From contig JAQUJJ010000157.1 of NCBI GenBank assembly GCA_028681035.1, forward strand, positions 1 through 7,745: a DNA stretch of 7,745 nucleotides, written 5' to 3'. Position 1 is the first letter of the stretch. Every line of letters starts with the position of its first letter. Position numbers and translations under genes: made by a program. Below, in pieces: positions 1 to 7,745 of this stretch. The DNA comes from Candidatus Cloacimonadota bacterium (GTDB lineage: Bacteria; Cloacimonadota; Cloacimonadia; Cloacimonadales; Cloacimonadaceae). Below the pieces are notes generated by a model that saw nothing but the letters and a program-made list of their open reading frames with translations, was not told where the DNA came from and made no database searches.

Positions 1-448
1 GCATTTCACGGGCTATCAGACAGGCTTCGATGGTTTTACCGATACCGACATCATCCGCGATCAATAAACGCACAGGATCAAGCTTTAGTGCCATCATGAG
101 CGGAACTAACTGGTAAGGTCTGGGATCAACTGCCAGCCTACCAAAGCTGCGGAAGGGTCCGGCACTGTTGCGGAAACCCAGTCTTAGGGCATCCCTCAGC
201 AGTTTGCAGGATTGATAGTCCCCTAATTGAGCTGGGTCTGGCAGATTGAAAGTAGCAGGCCTGACAGCTTCCAAAGAAGTGAGAATTCCTGTAATCTCAT
301 CATCACTACCACCCAAGGGTTTCACTATTAGCAAACCATCTGTAGAATCAGGCAATACGACCCATTCTCTGCCACGGGTGTTGACGAGGGAGCCAATGGG
401 GTATTTCATGATATCTTCCGATGTGCTTTGGTGTTGTTGATTTATCAT
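1..448 (-). CDS. drmD: DrmD-like SNF2-family helicase, N-terminal part (cut by window edge)
   Basis: The first 149 residues are visible; the gene continues past base 1. Seen: a short N-terminal domain with [15 protein letters not shown] (19-33) and [11 protein letters not shown] (45-55), a Q-motif-like RPYQL (110-114), then ADDVGIGKT (131-139), the Walker A of SNF2-type SF2 ATPases. From memory of the family, the GREWVVLP and LGGS-DEITGI blocks followed by this Walker A are characteristic of DrmD, the SNF2-like helicase of class 1 DISARM phage-defence systems. It should be an ATP-driven translocase acting on DNA in the cytoplasm. The first ATG (448) has a weak TTGGA about 8 bases upstream. 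A second ATG at 409 (residue 14, MKYPIGS) has GGAAG 5 bases upstream and would begin right at the conserved domain, so it may be the true start. The gene follows its neighbour by 41 bp on the same strand. The symbol is a family assignment; the ATPase core beyond Walker A is unseen. Confidence 0.72.
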
Positions 449-489
449 ATTTTATTCCAATGTTATACGGAGCTTACATTCCATTCATC

Positions 490-1188
490 TTAGAAACGGG
501 TAATCAGCCAACCATTGACTGATTGCTTATTCTGTGTTTTATGCATTGTATTGTAATCAATTTGAAAATGCGCATCCGAATTTACTAACTGAATGGGATT
601 TAGTGTTTGTGAGATCATGAAACGCTTGTCAACCACTAAAAAGACGAAAAAAATCTGCTTCAGAGGGATTAGGTTATAGTCGCCAGTGTTAGTCAGAGTT
701 TCTAAGGAATTAGAGAATTTGTTTAACAGCTCTTTAAAAGTTGCGCTGTTACAATTTTGCAGCACGTGAAACCAAGCACCGATATGGTTGTCTTGTATCA
801 ATTTATCTATATCTTTTTTTATACTATCTGGAGGGGCATTGTGAGCTTTGAATTCCATATCTGCTACTCGGTCGAATTTATCATTTACTCTTTCATACAG
901 AGATACATCAAATCTCGCAGACATGGGTGTGGTGCCTCTCCCCATGTGGGTTGCACCAGTAGGAGTCTCAACCGAGAAATACAATTCAGTATCAGTAATC
1001 TGGTAATTCTGGATTGCATTGATGCTTGCTACCCTAAATTCCTGTTCGCTTAATCGATAGGTTTCGTCGCGTTTTTGGGGTATGATTAGACGACTGCTTG
1101 GTTTCTGTTCATTCATCCCGATCAATTCTAAGGATGCCATCTTGCCTATATCATACATATAAGCCAATAGAATATTTGTGCTTATCAT
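490..1188 (-). CDS. Unrecognised 232-aa protein with a plausible PD-(D/E)XK nuclease core
   Basis: I do not recognise the family. The order of segments fits a PD-(D/E)XK nuclease fold: a helix with acidic residues (SEQEF, E48/E50), a strand (YFSVETP, 70-76), a strand carrying D94 (RFDVSLYE), a strand carrying E112-x-K114 (VADMEFKAHN), a helix (IKKDIDKLIQD, 123-133) and a strand (GAWFHVLQN, 137-145). D94 and E112/K114 would be the catalytic set. This is a pattern read by eye, not a database match. The C-terminal third (about 150-232) is featureless to me. There is no signal peptide and no clear membrane helix. The start is well supported: AAGGAG sits 5-6 bases before the ATG, just after the stop codon of the preceding gene (11-bp gap), so translation is probably coupled. 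Sampled GC is low (19/60 at 541-600) compared with the helicases. It could be a nuclease effector or a DNA-recognition subunit of the operon; a non-enzymatic protein is not excluded. Confidence 0.8.
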   Translation of the reverse strand: MISTNILLAYMYDIGKMASLELIGMNEQKPSSRLIIPQKRDETYRLSEQEFRVASINAIQNYQITDTELYFSVETPTGATHMGRGTTPMSARFDVSLYERVNDKFDRVADMEFKAHNAPPDSIKKDIDKLIQDNHIGAWFHVLQNCNSATFKELLNKFSNSLETLTNTGDYNLIPLKQIFFVFLVVDKRFMISQTLNPIQLVNSDAHFQIDYNTMHKTQNKQSVNGWLITRF

Positions 1189-1199
1189 GATTTCTCCTT

Positions 1200-1943
1200 T
1201 TATGCCTGTGCTAAGAACAGTATTTTTACAAAATCTATCAAATCTATCAGATCGTCGACTACTTGTTCTTGGTGTTTAGAGGATCTGTCAATCGAAGAGA
1301 TATCTACTTTTATCTCATTACTCGCTGGGAGGAAAGATATCCCATTTATCCTACTGGAATATTCAGCTCTAATGCAATTAGTCATAGCATCGACAATCGG
1401 TTTTACGCTGGTATTCCCTTTTTCCGGCTTGAGAAAAACCTTTGAACTATCAGTAAAATAGAACCTGAAACTATTATACCCTTCTTCTGTTCTTTCAAAG
1501 GGCAATTTAATGAATACAGCCTTCGTATTTGAGTCTGCATCAGCAGCATGGAATCTCCTTATCAAATTTGTATGATCAGCCACCATTTTATAACAGCGAT
1601 AGCGGTCTTTAGCTGTTCCGTTTTCAGATCCAGGTCCTGGAATACATTTTGGTTCAATTAGGTACTTGTTTTTATCCGCCCAATCTTGTAGCTTCTCTTC
1701 AAAAACATCATGAAATTCTCTTACTTGCTTTTTCGAAAAATATATCCTGTTTGCCAGCCAGTAGATTCCAACCGAGATACTCAACCCCATGATATCCTTC
1801 ACCGCATCGAGGACATTATTTACTGAAAATCCTCTAAAGAACATGCTGCATATAATCGCCATCGCTCCTACTAATCCCAGGATAGTTGCGATATTATCCG
1901 GATTACTGAGGAATTTTTGCTTACTTTGGGTTTCTTTAGCCAT
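1200..1943 (-). CDS. Predicted membrane protein, two N-terminal helices plus a soluble domain, unknown function
   Basis: A 247-residue protein that I do not recognise. Residues about 18-36 (IATILGLVGAMAIICSMFF) and 50-69 form two hydrophobic segments separated by a short polar loop. This predicts a helical hairpin in the inner membrane with both termini on the same side. The basic stretch after the second helix (KKQVR, 71-75) suggests that side is the cytoplasm. A charged, probably helical linker follows (73-92), then a soluble domain of about 150 residues with no catalytic motif I can name. The start is firm: AAAGGAG lies 6-7 bases before the ATG. The next gene begins 11 bp after its stop, with its ribosome site in that gap. 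Two membrane helices joined to a soluble domain are common in effectors or sensors of defence operons, which is the best clue to its role here. Sampled GC is 30-40%, lower than the flanking helicases. Confidence 0.82.
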   Translation of the reverse strand: MAKETQSKQKFLSNPDNIATILGLVGAMAIICSMFFRGFSVNNVLDAVKDIMGLSISVGIYWLANRIYFSKKQVREFHDVFEEKLQDWADKNKYLIEPKCIPGPGSENGTAKDRYRCYKMVADHTNLIRRFHAADADSNTKAVFIKLPFERTEEGYNSFRFYFTDSSKVFLKPEKGNTSVKPIVDAMTNCIRAEYSSRINGISFLPASNEIKVDISSIDRSSKHQEQVVDDLIDLIDFVKILFLAQA

Positions 1944-1954
1944 CGTGTACTCCT

Positions 1955-2188
1955 TTATTGCCCTTCGATTTTGTTAAAAATTGCCGCTTGTTGTATCGGT
2001 AGAGATGATACTCTTTCAGGTTTATCGTATTGTATATGCACAGGAATGTGGCATTTTCTGTGCATATCAGCATCCATATGCATAGGAAACAGGGTTTTTC
2101 TATACATATCATTTAATCTTATAGGTAACGCGATTACTGGGTTTTGAGATTGTCGTGACAGCGTAACGACATTGACGTCTTGATACAT
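1955..2188 (-). CDS. Small hypothetical protein (77 aa), uncertain
   Basis: An open frame that fills the space between the large helicase and the membrane protein on the same strand. I do not recognise the product. The chosen ATG (2188) has AAGG 8 bases upstream, overlapping the helicase stop codon. An in-frame ATG at 2194 and a TTG at 2212 are alternatives, the latter overlapping the helicase end. The protein has no membrane helix. Its middle is rich in Met and His (FPMHMDADMHRKCHIPVHI), where PMHM and PVHI are spaced 14 residues apart. This reflects an inverted and direct DNA repeat in the same place, so the peptide sequence may be a by-product of a structured DNA or RNA element. For a gene: operon position, 10-bp spacing from the helicase, and a stop lying just before the next gene's ribosome site. 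Against: short length, no known family, and the repeat. Confidence 0.42.
   Translation of the reverse strand: MYQDVNVVTLSRQSQNPVIALPIRLNDMYRKTLFPMHMDADMHRKCHIPVHIQYDKPERVSSLPIQQAAIFNKIEGQ
2034..2067. repeat. Strong inverted repeat (hairpin) with an extra direct copy of one arm
   Basis: The arms ATATGCACAG (2034-2043) and CTGTGCATAT (2058-2067) are perfect 10-bp reverse complements. Inside them AATG (2045-2048) and CATT (2052-2055) also pair around a 3-base loop, so nearly the whole 34 bases can fold. The left arm recurs at 2076-2088 as ATATGCATAGGAA against ATATGCACAGGAA at 2034-2046 (12 of 13 identical, period 42 bp). It lies in the doubtful small ORF, 91-124 bp upstream of the membrane-protein start. 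No T run follows on either strand, so it does not look like a simple intrinsic terminator. An mRNA processing or stability hairpin or a protein-binding site are options. Confidence 0.6.
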
Positions 2189-2198
2189 ATTCATAGCC

Positions 2199-5100
2199 TT
2201 ACTTCTCTCCAAAGATGTTGGCGTAATTTGAGATTATGGATTGCCAGTCTCCATCGTAGCGGAATCTGATTACGTGCCAGCCCAGGTCGTCCAGGCTATC
2301 TGCTATTACTTTGTCTTTGGCTCGTTGATCAGCAGTGTCGTGAACGGGACCGTCTATGTAAATAGCAGTGTATTTGTCTTGATAGCTAAAATCAGGTCGG
2401 GTGTGGCACTCTTCGATCAGTTGTTGAGCAGTCGTAGGAAGGATGTAGCCATTGTTATAGATATAATCCAGCCATTTAGTCTCCAGCGTAGAACCTGCCA
2501 GCTTTTTGAGCCTGGCATAATGCTCCACTCGTGAAAAACCACTTGAGGAGCGGGAAAGATCGGCGACCAGTAGCGTGATCAGGATATCTATAATCGCTTT
2601 CCTATCCAGCAAAGCGTGGTCTGTTTGATTTCTATAGCACAGCAGGCAATCATAGCAGGCAGCTTCGCAATCCTCTTTCGAGTTTTTTGCTCGTTTCAGA
2701 TCTTCAAAACTATCGCTATCGTAGTGGCACAATTCAATGGCTGCTTTGATCACGCGTTTGAAGTTACCGGCATCCAAAACCTGTTTCAATACCCCTGCTC
2801 CCCCTTCTGTGGATTCATAAAAGAGAATCGATTTACGATTGTCTTTGGAGGGTAGAGGTTCCACCGAAAGCTCGCTATCTTCCAGCTCAAACACTTGCTG
2901 GATCGCATTCTTGAGCGCTGCCTGCAGAGAGGCGATGATCGCATTACTAATGTCTATTTTGGGTTCAAAAAGCAGGCAGTTTTTGGTATCACTCACATAG
3001 GGTCTCACCAGTATTTTGTTCCTACTCATCGGCGAATCGTCATCGGCATCATCGTCTCCGGGACGTTTATCCCAGTATCCACGTTCAGTATCCAGCCAAA
3101 AGCCTTCAGGTTCACTTGTCCTGCGTTTACGATAGCCCATGTTGATGCGCCAGAGAGTGGCAGAGTCTCCATAGGTGAGCTTGGCGATGAGTTCATCCCC
3201 ATGGCTTAGTTCTGCCTTGATACAAGCCAGATTGCCATTTCTGGTGGCAAAACGCATGGTTGTGCGCACATCAAAGCCCAGCCTTAATCGCTCTTCCTCA
3301 TCGCAATTGATCTGATCCCGACGCTTGGCAACCACATTCTGCAATCTGAACAGATTGGGAATGGGAGCATCAAGCTGGCTCTTGCAATTGTCGCAGACGC
3401 TATCCAGTTTATCCAAACACAAGTAACCGCATTCAGGGCAGAGTTTGGCTTCATTGGTAACTATGCCATCTGGATTATCCTGAGCTGGCATGATTACCTG
3501 GTTGATAATGTAGCGAGAGCCTTCATGGTAAACAAAGGAGCGGGGGCCAAATTCTGTGATCGCCAGGAAGCGGGGACGAGAGACATACTCATCCCTGCCA
3601 CTTTTCACCCTGCGCCCCGGAATGAAGGCAGAGAGAGGTAAACGCGGGAAGTTGTAACCTGGTAAAAAACCCTCGCTGGCAAAATAACGATAACTATAGA
3701 AATCTGATTGTGTGGAACTTTTTGCACTGGTAAGAATATCTAATTGCGATTCAGCTTCCAGGCGAAGCCTTTGAGCTTGTTTCTTATCCCGGTCAGGACG
3801 GCTGGCATCATTTCTGATCTTATTCTGGATATCTTGTTGTTTAAGGGCTGCCTTATACAGTGCACGCCAACGCTCACAGGCTTGCTCAAAATGCTGAGGG
3901 ATCTGGTTAAACACATCACTGAGCCAATCTGAAGTGTACCATACTGAATTATCCAGATACTGGGTAATGGTATAAATAATCTGCTCTGCCCTTTTCTGGG
4001 CACGTGATCTGATCCCCATGTCGTTTAGAGTGCTAAGTACCGAAGGCAATAGTTCCAGGCTTGGTGGCTGTCCGGAGGCATCAATAAGCTCTGTTAAAGC
4101 ACTACCCAGTTTTAACTTGGCTTCTGAAAGCCAAATGGCATTAACGTGGGAGTGGAGCATATCCTCATTGGCTATATCTATCTGAGGAGTTGCAACAGCT
4201 CCAGAGACCATATTCTGGGGTCGCTTAAAGAAATATTGATCATGCGGGCTACCCGTGGAACAATAGCTGAAAATCAGGGCAGGTTGTCCGCTGCGTCCAG
4301 CTCTGCCACTGCGCTGAGCATAGTTGGCAGGAGTGGGAGGAATATTGCGCATATTCACAACGTTAAGCTGTGAGATGTCGATTCCAAGTTCCATAGTGGG
4401 TGAGCAATACAGGATAGGCAGGCTTCCTTTGCGAAAATCTTCTTCCCGATGCTCACGTTCATCATAGGAAACTTGGGCAGTATGTTCTCTGGATTCCAGA
4501 CCCATGGTAGACAGGGCAACTATCTGATAAAACTCTTTGAAGAACTGATTTACAGGTTCACCCTCCAAGGATTCAGAAGGTTGGCGAATGGGATCATAAT
4601 AGCCTTGGGTGCCATCACCTGCTTTCCACACTATCGCATCAGCTACCAATTGATATCCGGGGAGACCATCTTTGTCTTGTGTAACGCTTTCTATTAAACC
4701 ATAGCTTTCCAAGCCTGAGAGAAGGTTCTCTATTATAGTCTGAGTCTCTTCAAGGTTTATAGGGGATTGATATGCTGTAAACGTGTTGGATCGTCTCAGA
4801 TATTGAGCAAAACCGCTGCGAGTTGACAAGAAAACGTCGTTAGTATCATCTTTGCCCGCTTTACGTGAGCGGGGATAGAGTACTGCGGCATAAATCAGAT
4901 TGCGAGGCAATTCATTCTCATCAAAGCCCCAAGGTGGAATCAAGCGTTGCTGGCTTTGCTGCACTATTTGCTCTTGATCTTGGGGATTCAAATACGATAC
5001 TTTTATGGCAAGTCCCCGTCTCATCCAATCTAAGAGGATCTTGAGAATAGACAATCTGGTCTGTTGATTAGACTCAGCTAATGCAGGATGGCTGGTTGAC

Positions 5101-7352
5101 CACTGTTCCTGATCCGCAGCCAGTTCCTGTATAGACAGATAATCTATCTCGAGTAGGCCAGTCTGTTCCAGATTAGGTGCTGTAATTCTCCAACCACGTC
5201 TTAGGTCTCGATACAGGTAATAGCCCAGAACGTTACGAAAAGCTCTTTCTGTTTCTATCTTAGCCATGCCTTTCAAAGCCGTAGGATTGGAGCTATACTC
5301 TTCGTAAGGAAGATTCAGGTTGTTAAAGACTACTTGCGGTAGTTCGCTATGCCTGATGCCTTCGTTGCCACTATTGGCCAGAGCCCGATACAAGGCACCC
5401 CGCATTACTCCAACTTGGACAAAGTCATTAAAATGTCCTGCCTGAAGCGATGCATCCTGGCGATTATCGGTAAAACTGAGCAGTTTTTTGGCTTTGTCCG
5501 CTACATCCATCCCGCGCAAATGACGCACTGCTGACAAGGAAAGAATGGTGGTGGCAGTACTGCGACCTTCGGTGCCCAAAGCAGAGAGTTTGGCGAAATC
5601 ACTGCGTTGGTTGGGAGCAAACGATACACCACATCCAGGGCAGTAACGAAAAGGAGCACTTAGAAAGAGAAAGCGTCTGCCGACCTGGGATTCCAATCCA
5701 TTAGGAGCGACAAGCACGGGTTTCGGCAAATACTCTTTACGATTACTGAGCACTTTGCCATTTTGATCTTTCCATTCCGTGGGGAATTCTTCTATAATCT
5801 GCTCATCCGTGATGCCCATTGGGTCATATAGAAAACCGGCTTCCTGATCCTCATCAACTAACAGGTCATTCAATTCTCTGGGGTAATATCCGTGCACTTC
5901 CTGCTCTTCATCCAGGCTGCGCAAAACGGTATAGAACTCTTGGCCACAATGTCTGCAAAAGGATAGTGGCAATAGGATTTTGGATTTATTGCTACCCGGA
6001 ACATAAAGCTGTCTTTGTATTGTGAGGTGTTTAATGTCCGGTTCATCCAGCGATGCATAAACAGTATCACCTCGGCTGATGAATAGATGCAAGCGAAAGG
6101 CAAAAACGGGAAATCCATTGGCAGGGTTGATGCACTGGTAACCGAGCATCAGGATATGCTGAATGGCCTTTGTACAAGTTACGATATCCAATCCTGTTAA
6201 AACACTCAGTTCACTTGCTCCACCCTTTTCTCCAGTGATGCACTTGGGAGTGGAGCGGATCAAACGGCCTGTATCCTGCTCTGTGCTGAGTCCGAAAGTT
6301 GTTTCAATCCATGAAGCCAAGTGGTTGTTTTGGATCTGCTCAAAGCTGATCTCAGACATTGATAAAGTATCTTGAATGCTCTGTATTAGAGCTGTCGCAT
6401 ATTCAGATTGCTGGAAATTGTATTCCACCGTCACTCTTTGCAGTGATTCGGCAATAACGTTTTCAGGAAAAACAGGGCTGCCAAAGAGTAGGGAAGCGAC
6501 TCGGGATATCTCCTGATTTTGAGTGGCAAGATCACCACTGCTGGACATGGTTGCCGAGGTTCCCACACAGATGATATCCTTAGCTTTCGTTGCTTCTTTA
6601 GTTCTGCGGATCAGCATTGCAACATCGGCTCCTTGCCTACCACGATAGGTGTGCAACTCATCCAAGACCAAGAACTTCAAGTTACTGCAAGCCTTCACCA
6701 ATGGAGCTTCATCAGGACGTGTCAGGATCAGCTCCAACATCACATAATTAGTAAGGATGATGTCCGGAGGGTTAGTGCAAATCTCTTGTTTCTGTTCTGT
6801 AGATTCCTGTCCTGTATATCGCTTGAAGGTGACTGGTCGATCTGAGCCCGGAAAGCCAAAATCGATGAACTTCTCCAGTTCCTTTTCCTGACTATTGGCA
6901 AGAGCATTCATAGGATAGACAATGATGGCTTTGATGCCTTTTCCACTGCCGGTTTTGAGGATATGATTGACGATGGGGATGATGTATGCCAAACTCTTGC
7001 CTGAGCCGGTTCCTGTTGTGAGCACATAGTTGAAGTTTTTATCAGCTTGCTTGATGGCTTCTGCTTGATGCCTATAAAGTTGCATTGCTTTGCCGAGATC
7101 TGTCTTAGCATTCTTGATGCGGAATATCTTTGCACAATCGGGGTGTAAGATACCTTGCGATATCAATTGCTCAATCTGTTCGCCAAGTACGAAAAATGGA
7201 CTTATCTGCAGAAGTGGGTCTGGCCACAGCAGTCCAGCATTAAGCTCATCAGACACGATTCTTTTGATTGCTTCATCTTTGATAGTGATGAAGCCTTTCA
7301 CAAAAGAGCTGTAGTCACTTATAAGTTTATCTTTCAGCTCAAATACATTCAT
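2199..7352 (-). CDS. Giant SF2 helicase with MZB/DUF1998 zinc region and C-terminal Vsr-like nuclease domain
   Basis: An intact 1717-residue protein. Helicase lobe 1: LYRHQ (92-96), Walker A TGTGSGKS (113-120), YPMNAL (146-151), TNYVMLE (201-207), DELH (231-234), SAT (266-268). Lobe 2: FTDNRQDAS (627-635), SPTMELGID (984-992), QRSGRAGRSG (1013-1022). Between them lies a large insertion with two CxxC pairs (466/469, 571/574). A charged helical stretch covers about 1160-1210, then a zinc-ribbon-like set C1305/1308/1320/1323 and an acidic run (1433-1439). STEGGAGVL (1514-1522) and C1562/1566/1569/1572 mark the MZB/DUF1998 region known from MrfA/YprA, DruE and the DISARM proteins. The C-terminus has RPDF (1652-1655), YIDGPVHD (1665-1672) and KDK...LGWHVIRFR, matching the order in Vsr-type nucleases. 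The likely role is an ATP-driven DNA translocase with an attached nuclease, acting on invading DNA in the cytoplasm. AGGAAGG lies 7 bases before the ATG. First gene of the operon. DruE-like and fused DrmA/DrmB-like are both possible; I leave the symbol blank. Confidence 0.93.
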   Translation of the reverse strand: MNVFELKDKLISDYSSFVKGFITIKDEAIKRIVSDELNAGLLWPDPLLQISPFFVLGEQIEQLISQGILHPDCAKIFRIKNAKTDLGKAMQLYRHQAEAIKQADKNFNYVLTTGTGSGKSLAYIIPIVNHILKTGSGKGIKAIIVYPMNALANSQEKELEKFIDFGFPGSDRPVTFKRYTGQESTEQKQEICTNPPDIILTNYVMLELILTRPDEAPLVKACSNLKFLVLDELHTYRGRQGADVAMLIRRTKEATKAKDIICVGTSATMSSSGDLATQNQEISRVASLLFGSPVFPENVIAESLQRVTVEYNFQQSEYATALIQSIQDTLSMSEISFEQIQNNHLASWIETTFGLSTEQDTGRLIRSTPKCITGEKGGASELSVLTGLDIVTCTKAIQHILMLGYQCINPANGFPVFAFRLHLFISRGDTVYASLDEPDIKHLTIQRQLYVPGSNKSKILLPLSFCRHCGQEFYTVLRSLDEEQEVHGYYPRELNDLLVDEDQEAGFLYDPMGITDEQIIEEFPTEWKDQNGKVLSNRKEYLPKPVLVAPNGLESQVGRRFLFLSAPFRYCPGCGVSFAPNQRSDFAKLSALGTEGRSTATTILSLSAVRHLRGMDVADKAKKLLSFTDNRQDASLQAGHFNDFVQVGVMRGALYRALANSGNEGIRHSELPQVVFNNLNLPYEEYSSNPTALKGMAKIETERAFRNVLGYYLYRDLRRGWRITAPNLEQTGLLEIDYLSIQELAADQEQWSTSHPALAESNQQTRLSILKILLDWMRRGLAIKVSYLNPQDQEQIVQQSQQRLIPPWGFDENELPRNLIYAAVLYPRSRKAGKDDTNDVFLSTRSGFAQYLRRSNTFTAYQSPINLEETQTIIENLLSGLESYGLIESVTQDKDGLPGYQLVADAIVWKAGDGTQGYYDPIRQPSESLEGEPVNQFFKEFYQIVALSTMGLESREHTAQVSYDEREHREEDFRKGSLPILYCSPTMELGIDISQLNVVNMRNIPPTPANYAQRSGRAGRSGQPALIFSYCSTGSPHDQYFFKRPQNMVSGAVATPQIDIANEDMLHSHVNAIWLSEAKLKLGSALTELIDASGQPPSLELLPSVLSTLNDMGIRSRAQKRAEQIIYTITQYLDNSVWYTSDWLSDVFNQIPQHFEQACERWRALYKAALKQQDIQNKIRNDASRPDRDKKQAQRLRLEAESQLDILTSAKSSTQSDFYSYRYFASEGFLPGYNFPRLPLSAFIPGRRVKSGRDEYVSRPRFLAITEFGPRSFVYHEGSRYIINQVIMPAQDNPDGIVTNEAKLCPECGYLCLDKLDSVCDNCKSQLDAPIPNLFRLQNVVAKRRDQINCDEEERLRLGFDVRTTMRFATRNGNLACIKAELSHGDELIAKLTYGDSATLWRINMGYRKRRTSEPEGFWLDTERGYWDKRPGDDDADDDSPMSRNKILVRPYVSDTKNCLLFEPKIDISNAIIASLQAALKNAIQQVFELEDSELSVEPLPSKDNRKSILFYESTEGGAGVLKQVLDAGNFKRVIKAAIELCHYDSDSFEDLKRAKNSKEDCEAACYDCLLCYRNQTDHALLDRKAIIDILITLLVADLSRSSSGFSRVEHYARLKKLAGSTLETKWLDYIYNNGYILPTTAQQLIEECHTRPDFSYQDKYTAIYIDGPVHDTADQRAKDKVIADSLDDLGWHVIRFRYDGDWQSIISNYANIFGEK

Positions 7353-7618: not shown

Positions 7619-7745
7619 TGTACTTGATCACTGAAAACTGCAAATCTGATCACTGAAAACTGCAAATGGCTATTTTGGGCATAACTCTGATCACCGTTTC
7701 TGCAAATTTGATCACCGATTCTGCAAATGGTTCTGATCACCGTTT
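7619..7745. mobile_element. Probable end of an IS21-family insertion sequence (rest outside window)
   Basis: The repeat array begins after TGTAC (7619-7623). An outer TGT followed by several direct repeats of about 20 bp is the known layout of IS21-family ends, where IstA binds multiple sites. TGATCAC-type repeats in particular are ones I associate from memory with this group. No transposase gene, opposite end or target duplication is in the window, so both the family and the exact boundary at 7619 are inference. Plasmid-type iterons or an unrelated regulatory array are alternatives. Confidence 0.42.
7625..7745. repeat. Array of five about 20-bp direct repeats (TGATCAC...CTGCAAAT)
   Basis: Copies lie at 7625-7645, 7647-7667, 7688-7707, 7709-7728 and 7734-7745, the last cut by the window edge. 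All begin TGATCAC and the four complete ones end CTGCAAAT. Copies 1 and 2 are identical over 21 bp, with CACTGAAAA in the middle. Copies 3 to 5 share CACCG and have 3 bases (TTT or ATT) before CTGCAAAT. Spacing is 22 bp (copies 1-2), 41 bp (2-3) and 21 bp (3-4). Copy pairs are therefore about two helical turns apart, as expected of multiple binding sites for one protein on the same face of DNA. Confidence 0.9.

Follow-up and report, generated by a model that had tools for sequence, protein, structure and literature searches.

The question raised by the 7,745-nucleotide window analysed here, contig JAQUJJ010000157.1 of a Candidatus Cloacimonadota bacterium, is whether its helicase operon belongs to a known anti-phage system and what the genes between its two helicase genes contribute. 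We lean towards reading it as a predicted ARMADA Type I (ARMADA I) operon with a likely accessory arm, which would consist of the predicted membrane-anchored adaptor P0002 and the predicted PD-(D/E)XK nuclease P0001. Confidence in this reading is far higher for the core than for the function of the insert; gene order, domain make-up, tree placement, the adjacency of the helicase genes in most relatives examined and the recurrence of both inserted families are all direct observations. ARMADA was presented in a 2025 preprint (Bell et al., PMC12458937) as the missing link of DISARM and Druantia. In the available part of this source, Type I has the order YprA homologue, BrxHII-like helicase and PglX-like methyltransferase, and its YprA protein possesses a Vsr-type nuclease end and a single domain inserted in the OB-CON-DUF1998 region, compared to two in Type II.

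Five open reading frames (ORFs) run on the minus strand from position 7352 down to the left edge of the window (Table 1), as stated in the initial annotation. The gaps had been given as 10 to 41 base pairs; the upper value is correct, the lower one is not, as they measure 4, 11, 11 and 41 base pairs in the order from the YprA-family helicase gene to the SNF2 gene. The genes of P0002 and P0001 are closely spaced and have AGGAG upstream. The first gene encodes P0003, in which DEAD, Helicase_C, MZB and ResIII exceed the Pfam cut-offs within one chain, and which contains the motifs TGTGSGKS, DELH, TSAT and QRSGRAGR as well as five CxxC pairs. The helicase and MZB parts of the proposed fusion were thereby recovered; its putative Vsr-like part is represented by a C-terminal DUF559 match of 15.7 bits, which is below the Pfam cut-off of 20.6. 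A Vsr-like motif (RPDF...DGPVH) is present at the C-terminus and is kept in 106 of 120 relatives among the matches listed (120 of 7,994 entries). A first, over-strict regular expression for it matched 22 of the 120 and was loosened before counting; of the 18 rows assigned to Type I by operon, eight do not match the expression applied to them. Some relatives carry PF04480 in precomputed annotation. A single zinc-ribbon-like pair of CxxC motifs (1305-1323) lies within the OB-CON-DUF1998 stretch, which is expected for Type I because, according to the available part of the preprint, Type I has one inserted domain there. The closest named relatives among the matches listed come from Cloacimonadota metagenome-assembled genomes (MAGs): the best one is 95% identical and labelled Candidatus Cloacimonetes, and P0026, P0041, P0042 and P0043, with Cloacimonadota-type labels, are 71-72% identical, which makes a host from this phylum likely. 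A search of viral contigs with P0003 gave no match.

To place P0003, 38 YprA rows were put into a quick maximum-likelihood tree, with support given by the Shimodaira-Hasegawa-like approximate likelihood ratio test (SH-aLRT), without bootstrap. The labels were assigned in this analysis by operon: 18 rows were labelled Type I by their YprA-SNF2 order, and P0023 and P0026 by similarity. P0003 is found among the operon-defined ARMADA I rows, and the Type I label requires one change (SH-aLRT 99) on a branch that also includes reversed-order rows. Three Type II rows and two DruE3 rows lie outside this branch, and P0003 is separate from the two DruE3 rows and from one DrmA+DrmB row. Judged from its sequence, P0003 is a member of the ARMADA Type I branch of the YprA family. 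Due to long-branch warnings on the Type II/Druantia side, no relationship between Type II and Druantia is claimed.

The SNF2 fragment at the left edge points to the same system. Its best PADLOC profile is PDLC02853, named DpdE, with 171.8 bits compared to 54.8 bits for the best DrmD profile, and it shares 53.7-74.3% identity with eight ARMADA I helicases, but 37.4% with one ARMADA II ArmA; for a second Type II ArmA, the aligned part covers just 28 residues and is uninformative. The fragment thus fits ARMADA I helicases better than the DrmD-like label it had received. It also matches the phage protein family phrog_23807 of unknown function (E 9.2e-34), so that relatives of the helicase are also encoded by prokaryotic viruses. 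At E <=1e-60, PDLC02853 matched 24 of 395 Bacteroidota genomes and 9 of 392 Spirochaetota genomes, and 34 loci, accounting for 35 of the 36 matched places, were fetched. An ARMADA-like YprA gene is located directly upstream of the SNF2 gene in 28 of these 34 loci, with a spacing between a 107-bp overlap and a 22-bp gap; the neighbourhood of the two helicases in other genomes, a check that had been set beforehand, was therefore observed. Among the remaining six loci, a YprA-SNF2 pair was seen in L057 on inspecting frames, no YprA gene was recognised in L033, L034, L059 and L072, and the frame picker selected no SNF2 gene in L063. As strong matches to this DpdE profile sit directly behind ARMADA-like YprA genes in these 28 loci, annotation by PDLC02853 may wrongly assign helicases of ARMADA I to Dpd.

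A similar arrangement is seen on plasmids. In nine plasmid ARMADA I loci (L001, L002, L003, L005, L009, L010, L011, L077 and L081), the two helicases lie side by side in eight, counting L077, whose SNF2 frame extends as far back as YprA. In the Rhodococcus locus L010, a protein of 106 residues lies between the helicases and is the front part of the SNF2 helicase. Plasmids of Deinococcus, Nocardioides, Roseomonas, Rhodococcus and Acidithiobacillus encode full-length relatives of P0003, behind which come an SNF2-type helicase and a methyltransferase; the third gene of the Roseomonas locus L003 is annotated as hypothetical, yet matches methyltransferases, and the examined stretch of the Hydrogenimonas locus stops after the helicase. 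Two further observations were made at these loci: the Acidithiobacillus ARMADA I operon contains a Phd/VapC toxin-antitoxin pair between its SNF2 helicase and methyltransferase genes (L009:20103-20737), and on the Nocardioides plasmid (L002:3685-30000) DISARM drmA and drmB, an ARMADA I operon and McrBC-like genes are located side by side.

What distinguishes the Cloacimonadota operon is the insert between its helicase genes, a slot that is empty in the 28 loci with adjoining helicases. Its G+C content is 37.9%, compared to 45.0-48.0% in 3,405 windows of the same length from the helicase gene, and lies below that of both flanking genes; by codon usage, the inserted genes were not recognisable as foreign. 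Among the nine plasmid loci, only Chlorohelix L011 carries a slot gene. This gene (L011:15116-16285) encodes an unrelated protein of 389 amino acids with one hydrophobic segment, and its G+C content is 43.8%, whereas its neighbours have 50.7 and 54.9%. The candidate small ORF in the insert of the window has 79 codons when counted from ATG and 85 amino acids from TTG. It is longer than expected, as 7 of 5000 base shuffles of the gap reach at least 78 codons, and has no family in Pfam, PADLOC, NCBIfam or PHROG; searches of the same four collections recognised no antitoxin-like or regulator gene in the insert.

P0001 is likely a PD-(D/E)XK-like nuclease, as had been proposed, a prediction that is based on its conserved residues and a structure model. 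D94, E112 and K114 are invariant in ten aligned sequences (D...E-x-K), SEQE and D...E-F-K are present in three distant proteins, the elements of the model are arranged in a restriction-enzyme-like order, and restriction enzymes are among the VIA rows for it. P0001 had no Pfam match under E 0.18, sequence searches of solved structures with P0001 and P0002 gave nothing better than E 0.72, and Foldseek found no significant match for either model. P0002 is likely a membrane protein, in agreement with the earlier assignment, since it contains one clear hydrophobic segment; its soluble domain is perhaps chaperone-like, with a YbjN/type III secretion chaperone-like fold having been considered. Plasmids gave no match to either protein, and viral contigs no relative that could be confirmed. 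Among whole genomes, matches to the P0001 profile were obtained in 2 of 395 for Bacteroidota and in 1 of 392 for Spirochaetota, and two distant relatives of P0001 were found in genome contigs, whose neighbours are not ARMADA genes. Across 82 loci, P0001 relatives occur solely in the seven that were fetched because of P0001, and relatives of P0002 in none; the P0002 profile, run on five records without a positive control, matched none of them. In a Treponema MAG (L006:9369-11034), the frame of a distant relative of P0001 extends into the beginning of another frame, in which a D...E-x-K-like stretch was also seen by eye, and the overlapping frames perhaps encode a nuclease pair.

Homologues of both P0001 and P0002 recur, and their linkage to the helicase in relatives was judged by equal longest-contig sizes. 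A longest contig of 15772 is common to nuclease P0007, membrane protein P0018 and helicase P0044, one of 27423 to nuclease P0010 and helicase P0033, one of 142300 to nuclease P0013 and helicase P0026, and one of 6630 to nuclease P0012 and membrane protein P0020. The three nuclease-helicase coincidences compare with 0.34 expected for ten nuclease entries and 120 listed of 7,994 helicase entries, a value derived from the coincidence rate within the helicase list. Helicase identity between contigs 15772 and 27423 amounts to 93.5%, but nuclease identity to 75.0%; the nuclease therefore either evolves more quickly or is subject to exchange. Neither the nuclease list nor the membrane-protein list includes the 33,360-bp contig that carries the 95%-identical helicase, and this suggests that the insert is gained and lost.

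Table 1. Features of the window, listed in the direction of the operon.
Feature	Position	Strand	Description
YprA-family helicase P0003 (ArmC-like, ARMADA I)	2199..7352	-	1717 amino acids; DEAD, Helicase_C, zinc pairs, MZB/DUF1998, Vsr-like C-terminus
Low-G+C insert ("slot") separating the two core helicase genes	449..2198	-	1,750 bp, 37.9% G+C
79-codon ORF in the gap between helicase and membrane-protein genes	1955..2194	-	candidate gene
P0002, likely membrane protein	1200..1943	-	247 amino acids; one clear hydrophobic segment (residues 18-36), soluble alpha/beta domain
P0001, PD-(D/E)XK-like likely nuclease	490..1188	-	232 amino acids; E50 helix, D94, E112-x-K114
BrxHII/RapA-like SNF2 helicase (ArmA-like), first 149 codons	2..448	-	cut by window edge

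Upstream of the helicase gene (7625-7745), direct repeats are arranged around TGATCAC, with identical 21-mers at 7625 and 7647 and 14-mers at 7686, 7707 and 7732. Such short direct repeats recall the end repeats of some insertion sequences. Neither a tRNA nor an Rfam family at its gathering score was found in the window, whose DNA has no near match in the plasmid collection.

ARMADA II and DISARM serve as analogues for how the core would act: self DNA would carry the mark of a methyltransferase encoded outside the window, both translocases would load on phage DNA that lacks this mark or is being replicated, and cutting would be done by the Vsr-like tail of P0003. P0002 may hold or switch P0001 at the membrane via its soluble, perhaps chaperone-like, domain, and P0001 would cut DNA once the core engages its target or a phage blocks the core. 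PD-(D/E)XK nucleases have been reported as auxiliary effectors inside BREX-type operons (PMC12839542, available part), which favours P0001 as a second effector that is held or regulated by P0002. More tentatively, the operon could represent a new ARMADA I subtype in which the helicase-helicase boundary serves as a cargo slot: the core would sense phage DNA, and the slot genes would provide a swappable second effector at the membrane, which in Cloacimonadota would be a membrane-anchored, chaperone-like adaptor together with a second PD-(D/E)XK nuclease, and in Chlorohelix a membrane protein unrelated to these.

The inserted genes could instead be an independent hitchhiking module, for example a self-contained defence or toxin-antitoxin-like unit, without functional tie to the ARMADA operon. 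This explanation is possible but doubtful: it would fit the G+C content of the insert, its probable absence beside the 95%-identical helicase, the VapC pair inside the Acidithiobacillus operon, the distant P0001 relatives outside ARMADA loci and the faster divergence of the nucleases. However, the insert retains the strand and tight spacing of the operon, members of at least two nuclease families are found on contigs with the same helicase clade, and nothing resembling an antitoxin or regulator was recognised in it. It is improbable that the operon is an ordinary ARMADA I operon whose middle genes are non-functional or decaying leftovers. The small ORF without a known family would agree with decay, and P0013, a 144-residue piece of P0005's nuclease annotated on one contig, means that broken or misread nuclease copies exist, but P0001 and P0002 are intact and their relatives (50-68% and 57-67% identity, respectively) are full length with conserved residues kept.

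Least probable by far, and already disfavoured, is that the locus is a variant of DISARM class 1 or Druantia rather than ARMADA. The best PADLOC label for P0003 is DruE3 (342 bits), and DrmD profiles do match the SNF2 fragment; however, DUF1998 is fused to the helicase instead of forming a separate DrmB, P0003 stands apart from the DruE3 and DrmA+DrmB rows of the tree, and the higher-scoring PDLC02853 profile has its strong matches directly behind ARMADA-like YprA genes in 28 of 34 loci.

As the helicase pair matches ARMADA Type I as described in the available part of PMC12458937, the claim of an undescribed system is not supported: the core is known, and what appears new is the extra gene pair. 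This pair appears undescribed, in line with the view that the middle genes match no known DISARM or Druantia component, since a search by term found no description in the main texts of PMC12458937 and PMC12839542 or in the publication listings examined. Of the suggested new subtype linking DISARM and Druantia, a defence-type operon between both families remains, in which a likely membrane protein and a second likely nuclease accompany two translocases; the link itself was already proposed for ARMADA. Should the slot genes act together with the core, they would illustrate how helicase-based immunity gains extra effectors and couples DNA sensing to the membrane, and two families without a Pfam name would join the parts of phage defence.

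Like ARMADA I, the window has a YprA helicase with fused DUF1998 and a Vsr-like tail first and a BrxHII/RapA-like helicase afterwards, with 149 codons of a same-strand SNF2 gene following past the insert; it differs by the extra genes between the helicases, which adjoin in 28 of the 34 loci, and the third core gene, the methyltransferase, would lie beyond the window, which ends inside the SNF2 gene. ARMADA II has related YprA, SNF2 and methyltransferase parts, but its order is SNF2, methyltransferase, YprA and GajB-like helicase, whereas YprA precedes SNF2 in the window; its YprA rows are found elsewhere in the tree, and its SNF2 identity is the lower one given above. The system cloned and mutated in the preprint, as far as its available part goes, is an E. 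coli Type II cluster, in which all four genes were required, helicase and methyltransferase motifs mattered and cells survived. DISARM class 1 shares a YprA-family and an SNF2-like helicase; however, DrmA and DrmB are separate genes there and the nuclease DrmC is of the phospholipase D (PLD) type, according to the partial source, while helicase and DUF1998 form one chain in the window. The Druantia III protein DruE, reported in the available part of PMC13192584 to engage intermediates containing single-stranded DNA, is likewise a YprA-family helicase with a C-terminal nuclease, but is described in the source available as having a PLD-domain end and the partner DruH, whereas P0003 has no PLD family in Pfam and a Vsr-like motif instead. 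The auxiliary effectors of BREX and BREX-related operons resemble P0001 in being stand-alone PD-(D/E)XK nucleases encoded with BrxHII-like helicases; in the accessible part of PMC12839542 they accompany BREX or DUF499 cores, whereas the window combines a YprA core with a likely membrane partner.

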